Both the position numbers and the translations under genes were made by a program. The notes beneath the pieces are model-generated. The model was not told the origin of the DNA, did no database searches, and was given only the letters and a program-made list of their open reading frames with translations. From Thermoleophilia bacterium (lineage in GTDB: Bacteria; Actinomycetota; Thermoleophilia; Gaiellales; Gaiellaceae): a DNA stretch of 64,000 nt. Positions 12,897-15,347 of this stretch are shown here, in pieces. The first letter of the stretch is position 1. Each line of letters opens with the position of its first letter. Location of the stretch: positions 1 through 64,000 of the forward strand of contig JAHDVS010000005.1 in the NCBI GenBank assembly GCA_023382435.1. Direction: 5' to 3'.

Positions 12897-13133
12897 GTGG
12901 CTCCCGTCAGGACGTGCGTCGGCTGCCGGCGCCGGGCACCGAAGGCGCTGCTCGTGCGCTTCGCCTCGCTCCGGGGCACGCTCACGCTCGACCCCGCCGG
13001 TCTGCTGCCGGGCCGTGGCGCCTACACGTGCCCGAACGCGGCGTGTTTCGAGCGGGCCGCCGGCCGGCGAGCGTTCACACGGACGCTCCGGCAAGCCGTC
13101 GAGATCCCGCCCGGAATCTCGCCGGAGGGCTAA
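12897..13133 (+). CDS. rnpM: YlxR/RnpM family RNA-binding protein
   Basis: This 78-residue YlxR-domain protein has RTCVGCRRRAPKALLVRF, GRGAYTCPNAACFERA and RRAFTRTLRQ, the family signature. In Bacillus the homologue (RnpM) binds RNase P RNA and modulates its activity. The start is GTG 12897, three bases after nusA. Its TAA stop lies inside the CTAAG that borders the insertion-like element before infB. Confidence 0.9.
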   Translation: MAPVRTCVGCRRRAPKALLVRFASLRGTLTLDPAGLLPGRGAYTCPNAACFERAAGRRAFTRTLRQAVEIPPGISPEG

Positions 13134-13134
13134 G

Positions 13135-13345
13135 CCTGGATCCACCGATCTGCGCGGACGGTGCGCCCGTCTGGGCTCGCCAGGCCGCTTCCCGTCCGGG
13201 CTGTGGCCCCTTCGGGGCCTCCACCAGGCCGGTGCGCTCCGCGTCGCGGTGCCGCCGGCCGGGCCTCGGCCCGCCCGCCGTCACCCCGCCACGTCCTGCC
13301 GGCCCAGCCGAACGCCCCGTGGTCACGCATGTCGGTGGATCCAGG
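13135..13345. mobile_element. MITE-like element with inverted ends between rnpM and infB
   Basis: The segment is bounded by perfect 14-bp inverted ends, CCTGGATCCACCGA (13135-13148) and TCGGTGGATCCAGG (13332-13345). It is flanked on both sides by CTAAG (13130-13134 and 13346-13350), which looks like a 5-bp target duplication. The 183-bp interior is very GC-rich, contains a strong GGCCCCTTCGGGGCC hairpin and has no convincing gene. The right flank supplies part of the TAAGCT box of infB. A long-range leader stem that happens to have repeat flanks is the alternative. Confidence 0.5.
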
Positions 13346-13346
13346 C

Positions 13347-13352
13347 TAAGCT
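13347..13352 (+). promoter_or_regulatory. -10-like hexamer of a leaderless infB promoter
   Basis: TAAGCT ends 7 bases before ATG 13359, placing the transcript start on the ATG. There is no Shine-Dalgarno sequence upstream of that ATG. The first four bases belong to the CTAAG flank of the insertion-like element. Confidence 0.45.
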
Positions 13353-13358
13353 GAGCTG

Positions 13359-15347
13359 ATGGCGAACGGAGGCAACAAGCCGCAGCGCCCCCTGCGTCCC
13401 CGCGGGGGAACGCCCGCCGGGCGCCGCAAGCGCCGCGTGGTCATCGACGCACCGCGGCCGAGGCCCGGCGACCAGCAGCGCGGTCGCGACGCCGGCACCA
13501 GGCAGCCGCGGGAGGTCTCGGAGGCCCCGGTCAGGGACACCGGGCCGGTCACGGTCGCGTCCGGGGCAACAGTCAAGGATCTCTCCGCCGCTCTCGGCGT
13601 CCCCGCCGCCCAGATCATCAAGATCATGATGGGCGTCGGCGAGATGGTCACGATCACGCAGACGCTCCCCGACGACGGCATCGAGCTGATCGCGACGGAG
13701 CTTGGCCGCGAGGTCGTGATCAAGCACGCCGACGAGGAGGACCTCGAGCCCGAGGTCTACGAGGATGCCGAGGCCGATCTGGCGCCGCGTCCCGCGGTGG
13801 TCGCGATCATGGGGCACGTCGATCACGGCAAGACGACCCTCCTCGACGCGATCCGCGAGACCGCGGTCGTCGAGACCGAGGCCGGCGGGATCACGCAGCA
13901 CATCGGCGCCTACCAGGTCGACCACGACGGGCGCCGGATCACGTTCCTCGACACGCCGGGACACGAGGCGTTCACGGCGTTGCGCGCCCGCGGCGCGAAA
14001 GTGACCGATATCGCGGTGCTCGTCGTCGCGGCCGACGACGGTGTCATGCCCCAGACCAGGGAGTCGATCAGCCACGCTCGCGCGGCTCAGGTCCCGATCG
14101 TGGTCGCGGTCAACAAGATCGACAGGCCGGATGCGAACCCGACCCGCGTCCGCCAGGAGCTCGTTGCCGAAGGGCTCCAGCCGGAGGAGTGGGGCGGCAC
14201 GGTTCAGTTCGCCGACGTGTCCGCCAAGGCCCAGGAAGGCCTCGACGACCTGCTCGAGAAGGTGCTGCTCGTCGCGGACGCGGAGCTCGAGCTCACCGCC
14301 AACCCGAAGGCGCCCGCGTCCGGACCGATCATCGAGTCACGGCTCGACGTCGGGCGGGGACCCGCCGCGACCATGCTCGTCCACCGCGGCACCCTGCGTG
14401 TCGGCGACGCGATCGTCGCCGGCGACGCGTGGGGCAAGGTGCGCGCGCTCTACGACTTCCGTGGCGAGCGGGTCAAGGAGGCCGGGCCCGGGACTCCGAT
14501 CGAGCTGCTCGGCTTCGACAAGCCGCCGCAGGCCGGCGAGCACGCGCGTGTCGTCGAGAACGACCGCCAGGCCAGGCATCTCGCGGGTTTGCGTGGCCAG
14601 CGGCTGCGCGCGGAGCAGCTCGCCCGCCAGGCGCGCCGCGGCCCCTCGCTCGAGGACCTGTTCACGCGGCTCGGCGAGGGCGTCGTCCAGGATCTCAACC
14701 TGGTCGTGAAAGCCGACGTGCAGGGCTCGATCGAGGCGGTCACGGGCGAGCTCGCGAAGATCAGCCACCCCGAAGTGCGCATCAACGTCATTCACACCGG
14801 AATCGGGGCGATCTCGGAGAGCGACATCATGCTCGCGTCCGCCTCGAGCGCGATCGTGGTCGGATTCAACGTGCGTCCCAACGCGGACGCCAGGATGCTC
14901 GCCGAGCGCGAGGGCGTCGACCTCCGGACCTACCGCGTCATCTATCAGCTCACCGAGGACATCCAGAAGGCGCTCGTCGGCATGCTCGCCCCCGAGCAGG
15001 TCGAGGACGTGATCGGCGAGGTGGAGGTTCGGGCGCTGTTTCGCATCTCCCGGCTCGGTGTCATCGCGGGCTGTTACGTCACGAGCGGGGTCGTACGGCG
15101 CAACGCGCGCGTTCGCGTCGTCCGCGAAGGCACCGTCATCTACGAGACGACCCTCGCGAGCCTCAAGCGCTTCAAAGACGATGTCCGCGAGGTTCAGTCC
15201 GGCTTCGAGTGCGGCATCCAGCTGGAGGGCTTCAACGACGTCAAGGAAGGCGACGTCCTCGAGTTCTTCGAGACGCGCCAGGTCGAACGCACGGATCTCG
15301 TCGTGGCGAGCCCGGCCAGCGCCGAGCCACCGGACGAGGCGGCGTAG
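13359..15347 (+). CDS. infB: Translation initiation factor IF-2
   Basis: IF-2 is the GTPase that brings fMet-tRNA to the 30S subunit and promotes subunit joining. The 662-residue protein has a short N-terminal basic part, an IF2_N domain ([20 protein letters not shown]) and the G domain with G1 GHVDHGKT (~150), G3 DTPGHEAF and G4 NKID. Domains II, III and IV follow, including the C-terminal fMet-tRNA-binding barrel ([20 protein letters not shown]). It is compact compared with the ~900 residues of many actinobacteria, because the N-terminal extension is short. Confidence 0.96.

Follow-up and report, generated by a model that had tools for sequence, protein, structure and literature searches.

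The interval between rnpM and infB

The window, that is, the whole 64-kb stretch of DNA analysed here, carries on its + strand a gene that we take to be rnpM (ylxR), a name adopted from the earlier note and from general knowledge of the nusA-rnpM-infB order. It spans positions 12897–13133, starts with GTG and translates into 78 amino acids; its CxxCR-type motif was used to find counterparts in relatives. On the same strand follows infB (13359–15347), encoding the 662-amino-acid translation initiation factor IF2, which has near full-length matches of 67–80% identity in relatives and starts with the ATG at 13359.

Between both genes lies a non-coding element of 211 bp with 78% G + C (13135–13345, no strand assigned), bounded by 14-bp inverted ends that we read directly from the sequence. 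The left end, CCTGGATCCACCGA, occupies 13135–13148 on the + strand, and the right end, at 13332–13345 on the − strand, reads TCGGTGGATCCAGG on the + strand. The two ends match perfectly and the inverted arms extend to 26 nt at 88% identity. Identical CTAAG pentamers flank the element at 13130–13134 and 13346–13350 and constitute its target-site duplication, in agreement with the CTNAG consensus of other copies. The TAA stop codon of rnpM (13131–13133) falls within the left pentamer, while the right pentamer opens the hexamer TAAGCT (13347–13352). The ends, the length, the flanks and their overlap with the stop codon and the hexamer are, to the base, as the earlier note had described them. A perfect 14-bp inverted repeat with arms 40–400 bp apart and identical 5-mer flanks occurs once in the 64-kb window and in none of 60 randomised windows matched to it in first-order (dinucleotide) composition. 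As + strand RNA the element is predicted to fold strongly (−141.2 kcal/mol, z −5.3), with the inverted ends pairing at the foot of the stem and the CTAAG flanks, themselves close to palindromic, extending it.

The 225 nt that separate rnpM from infB in the window stand against −26 to +57 nt in the 69 relatives with an rnpM call; five of these gaps, from −11 to −26, may stem from a wrong frame in the rnpM search. In 15 of 85 relatives rnpM was not called, in part because the motif has its limits. A survey of 24 relatives placed the infB start −14 to +57 nt from the rnpM stop (out of 30 loci, four gave no result and L209 had a wrong start, the overlap there being 25 nt in the larger survey). In 32 of the 69 relatives the gap is −8 nt and the rnpM stop codon lies inside the first infB codons. 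Removing the element and one CTAAG from the window leaves TAA-GCTGAGCTG-ATG, a gap of 9 nt identical to that of G024 and G034; the comparison of gaps proposed in the earlier note returned empty junctions. Among 86 family loci, the window alone has such ends as a pair in the 440 nt preceding infB (only 16 nt were available for G086). Single end-like matches (≤2 mismatches of 12) were present in this region in six relatives, all partnerless; they were taken as chance, some of them lying in the conserved GTCGATCC of rnpM. The RnpM motif was not found before infB in G082 (L229) and G004 (L214). Outside the family, the InfB open frame of several of the loci L303–L323 extends 100–300 nt further upstream than that of the window, and their starts could not be aligned.

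Copies of the element and the IS1380 connection

We searched for the element in 61 genomes, its own and 60 relatives. The own assembly is a draft of 2.73 Mb in 79 contigs, 96% complete. It holds a second copy at C2:113582-113741, flanked by CTCAG on both sides and measuring 150 bp without the flanks; its middle is missing, and the two parts that align with the infB-side element show 97 and 92% identity. The target duplication of this copy supplies the TGA stop of the adjacent open frame. A third copy, C11:25258-25358, is degenerate, with an altered left end and a CTAAG right flank; a matching target duplication was not found there. Among the relatives, G032 carries several copies (84–97% identity over the matched parts) and G043 a nearly full-length one (78% identity), all on contigs other than the infB contig, and the rnpM-infB gap of G032 is 0. 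A 165-bp element of G012 matches at both ends (82–85%). An E value of 0.001 was reached in 19 of the 61 genomes; many of the weaker matches are short stretches and were not counted as copies. G032 and Candidatus Gaiellasilicea maunaloa have a contig in common, L032 lying wholly within L105.

The further copies in the genome establish that the structure is real. It is shorter than a transposase gene, non-coding and bounded by inverted ends; it has dispersed copies, one good and one degenerate in its own genome and others in G032 and G043; and it comes with target duplications (CTAAG/CTAAG here, CTCAG/CTCAG at C2) and empty rnpM-infB junctions. The 211-bp element is a MITE.

To place the ends in a wider setting we used the pattern CTNAGCCTGGATCCACC. 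With up to one mismatch it occurred in 15 of 129 genomes of the order, reaching 53 matches in G076, and the reversed control pattern gave one match overall. The exact pattern was found in at least 119 stretches of the species collection, by their titles mostly from Actinomycetota. Paired ends of this type bound MITEs of recurring size (~157, ~164 and ~222 bp) as well as elements of ~1.6–1.8 kb. MITEs of these size classes with IS1380-type ends and CTNAG duplications were seen in the actinomycetotal stretches L074, L075, L092, L098, L106, L107, L118, L153, L157 and L190. Nine proteins from the longer elements were tested: seven matched Pfam PF13701 and passed the cut-off of the NCBIfam IS1380 model (NF033539, 180 bits) with 264–348 bits, one matched partially (94.9 bits) and one had no match. 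The first 13 bases, CCTGGATCCACCG, are common to our element and to transposase-bearing elements of other genomes, and the latter are flanked by CTNAG at one or both ends. The likeness is limited to the ends: similarity to the longer elements is restricted to ~15–21 terminal bases, and a parent insertion sequence was not found. Neither was an IS1380 transposase in the own assembly (96% complete). Among nine related genomes carrying the ends, three had IS1380 transposase matches, two of which pass the cut-off, and in G095 a transposase fragment adjoins an exact end with TTTAG. Judged by its ends, the element belongs with the MITEs that IS1380-family transposases would mobilise.

These observations bore out the proposal of the earlier note that a non-autonomous transposon had inserted into the operon, by way of the other copies, the target duplications, the empty sites and the IS1380 elements with the same ends. 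The alternative offered there, a long-range regulatory RNA stem acting as a leader of the operon mRNA, draws on the strong + strand fold, but the gaps of 69 relatives are too short to hold such a stem, the paired ends precede infB in the window only out of 86 loci, the same sequence sits at unrelated places, and target duplications are present. Nor was there a credible Rfam match: the sole one up to E 1 belongs to a plant-microRNA family, scores far below threshold and lies outside the element. With conservation at the same gene absent among relatives and the dispersed copies contradicting it, a structured RNA leader is ruled out, and we regard this explanation as extremely improbable. We give hardly any credence to an assembly artefact or contamination. 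Repeats often break draft assemblies such as this one with its 79 contigs; the element, however, is flanked by operon genes within a contig of 111 kb, and the second copy is internal to one of 152 kb.

As to known systems, the element resembles IS1380-family insertion sequences in its terminal repeats, its 5-bp duplication and the CTNAG flank of the transposase-encoding longer elements, from which it differs in being only 211 bp long and devoid of a transposase gene. In the excerpts available, IS1247 of this family has 5-bp direct repeats (PMC3281130), and ISPsp9 is given with 5 bp and another IS1380 element with 4 (PMC4133298). Bacterial MITEs such as the TIME elements of Pseudomonas are, as far as the accessible part of PMC4133298 describes them, likewise small and non-coding, with inverted ends, a target duplication and a long RNA hairpin. 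The TIME elements have Tn3-type ends, whereas the infB-side MITE has IS1380-type ends and a palindromic CTNAG target (PMC4133298, same excerpts). It also differs from bacterial MITEs in general in having three copies in its genome, one of them degenerate. The titles, abstract openings and passages searched contained no description of IS1380-type MITEs of Actinomycetota, though one may exist, and apparently no paper there mentions CTNAG together with ‘insertion sequence’. The element is of a known kind, a MITE with IS1380-type ends, and the conserved box before infB is the more interesting part.

CTNAG targets and stop codons

Every CTNAG includes TAA or TGA on one strand, and for this reason landings on stop codons leave the upstream protein unaltered. 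We compared the insertions with control sites in four versions of a stop-codon test, whose p-values serve as a guide only, with a gene caller that missed rnpM and the neighbour of the C2 copy. Judged by the length of the open frames, a frame of 150 codons or more terminates at 13 of 31 elements and at 48 of 325 control sites (p 0.0006). When genes were called and flanks joined, stops coincided with 12 of 27 insertions outside coding sequence and with 18 of 104 control sites (p 0.005). Counting tandem copies as one, 10 of 26 such insertions were exactly on the stop of a called gene versus 18 of 108 among the remaining non-coding CTNAG sites (p 0.03). The single-end version gave 21 of 70 versus 37 of 187 (p 0.09); it had no means of classing an element end as intragenic, which voids its second comparison. 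An excess of insertions at stop codons, as a target preference, is thus suggested but not settled. Two-ended elements lie inside called genes in 4 of 30 cases, compared with 169 of 277 CTNAG sites; the survival of harmless insertions is enough to account for this rarity.

Two arrangements were observed in passing. At L153:6192-6510, two 157-bp elements stand head to tail with one common CTGAG, as if one had inserted into the duplication of the other, and at L107:2167-2202 two left ends form a direct repeat 19 bp apart with CTNAG before each.

The box before infB and a proposed history

The hexamer TAAGCT (13347–13352, + strand), 6 nt before the infB ATG, is a TANNNT-type candidate −10 box of a probable leaderless promoter. 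It consists of CTAAG and the CT that follows, both present in the uninterrupted site, and its distance agrees with that of leaderless promoters, in which TANNNT ends ~6–7 nt before the start codon. A TANNNT precedes infB by 5–11 nt in 73 of the 85 genomes of the family, the window included, as TACACT (64), TAAGCT (3), TAGGCT (2), TAGACT (2), TAGTCT (1) or TAGAAT (1), and the distance is 10 nt in 30 genomes. At a control distance of 18–24 nt it was present in 2 of 85, and 300 shuffles gave a mean of 3.6 and a maximum of 11. Among the 12 genomes lacking the box at 5–11 nt, eight have TACACT 13–25 nt off and G002 has TAGGCT at 24 nt; no such box was found in G013, G100 and G117. The same type of box was not found before rnpM (0 of 20) nor before the gene after infB (0 of 26), the starts of these genes being approximate. 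For this count 86 loci were parsed out of 103 family genomes (17 were not used, their start being missing, fragmentary or not fetched); G086 was dropped at a contig edge, and G002 and G026, for which internal starts had been chosen, were replaced by upstream sequences from the earlier survey. The box and gap counts are interdependent, as the genomes share kinship.

The box usually lies within the end of rnpM, and several features suggest that it is held at the level of DNA. The Tyr-Thr pair near the RnpM end is written TAC ACT in 58 of 58 cases, and ACT is rare in infB itself, where it accounts for 23 of 1119 Thr codons across 30 loci. TACACT is outside the rnpM frame in G103 and G069 and after the rnpM stop in G075 (the frame was not found for 11 loci of this comparison). 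In G082 it is kept though the open frame directly upstream resembles the NusA of the window. An alignment of 80 upstream regions on the box revealed a fairly conserved GTCGA at −24 to −20 (≤1.29 bits) that falls within rnpM codons; if it is part of a promoter, it is now separated from the box by the MITE.

The TANNNT box in 73 of 85 genomes and these signs of DNA-level conservation point to an ancestral promoter, and we infer that the box is the −10 of a leaderless or nearly leaderless infB promoter. Since the spacing varies (6–11 nt, mostly 10), a transcript beginning a few bases before the ATG is in many relatives just as likely as a strictly leaderless one. In the parts of these papers at hand, TANNNT ~12 bp before the start has been described as a mark of leaderless genes in bacteria of high GC content (PMC3160421), and promoters of Mycobacterium tuberculosis have TANNNT in common but no conserved −35 (PMC3898074). 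The infB box resembles those cases in its placement ~12 bp before the start codon of a high-GC actinobacterium; it differs in that a single gene was followed, in that it is kept through the coding end of the preceding gene, and in being known here from sequence alone. A table row in one paper of the leaderless literature names infB with a position in Mycobacterium marinum (PMC8022548). That infB of this family has its own leaderless promoter, with a −10 box embedded in the rnpM end and held at the DNA level, as the rare ACT codon, the frame changes and the absence of rnpM suggest, is a tentative reading to which we assign slightly less than even odds.

Two other accounts of the junction start from the same insertion. 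The earlier note had suggested that infB may have acquired a new leaderless promoter through the duplication, and TAAGCT is indeed at the right distance from the ATG, with the upstream promoter region replaced by the MITE end. The reconstructed empty site rules this out: TAAGCT is already complete there, uninterrupted relatives have a box of the same type in the same place (TAGGCT in G024, TAGTCT in G034), and the element brings no −35 recognised by a consensus scan. Creation of a promoter is accordingly very unlikely; because TAAGCT is complete in the uninterrupted site, the duplication preserved the infB box rather than creating it. The other account, in which the MITE inserted but infB is made from the long operon mRNA only, the hairpin is read through and TACACT has another role, such as a translational coupling signal, is one that we hold to be unlikely. 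The 8-nt overlap of rnpM and infB in 32 of 69 relatives is typical of translational coupling, a sigma-70 consensus scan found no promoter at the site, and the open frames on either side of the element keep the operon order. Weighing against it, the box stays −10-like in 73 of 85 genomes at 5–11 nt before the ATG, is independent of the rnpM frame or stop in some of them and is present in G082, where rnpM has no match. In the window, moreover, 225 nt now lie between the genes, and no clear Shine-Dalgarno sequence was seen by eye beside the infB ATG.

We propose, with a probability of about 0.8, that an IS1380-type MITE entered a CTNAG target in the rnpM-infB interval and left the shared signals of both genes intact, the box being the presumed ancestral infB −10. 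An IS1380 transposase, absent from the present assembly, would have placed the MITE into a CTAAG already in double use, as the TAA ending rnpM and as the TAAG opening the TAAGCT box. The stop codon now stays with the left CTAAG and the box with the right one. infB would then be expressed from its own box, its closeness and any coupling to rnpM translation lost; if the box is the ancestral infB promoter, the gene can be expressed alone despite that loss. Any transcript reading through from upstream would contain the complete MITE, folded into a strong hairpin. No benefit of the element is known, and it is probably tolerated rather than selected.

In this way a target duplication lets an element land on overlapping signals and destroy neither, as each neighbour receives one copy. 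The literature found on duplications that regenerate a stop codon concerns, by title, animals or plants only. The insertion also uncovered a candidate promoter, conserved in the family, of the gene for an essential translation factor and provides a natural test of it, in which the upstream gene was moved off and the box left in place. IF2 has been reported to stimulate leaderless translation in vitro, with a contrary report also cited, in the accessible part of a review (PMC9031893). Because of that reported stimulation, infB mRNA could, if the promoter is indeed leaderless, respond to its own product.
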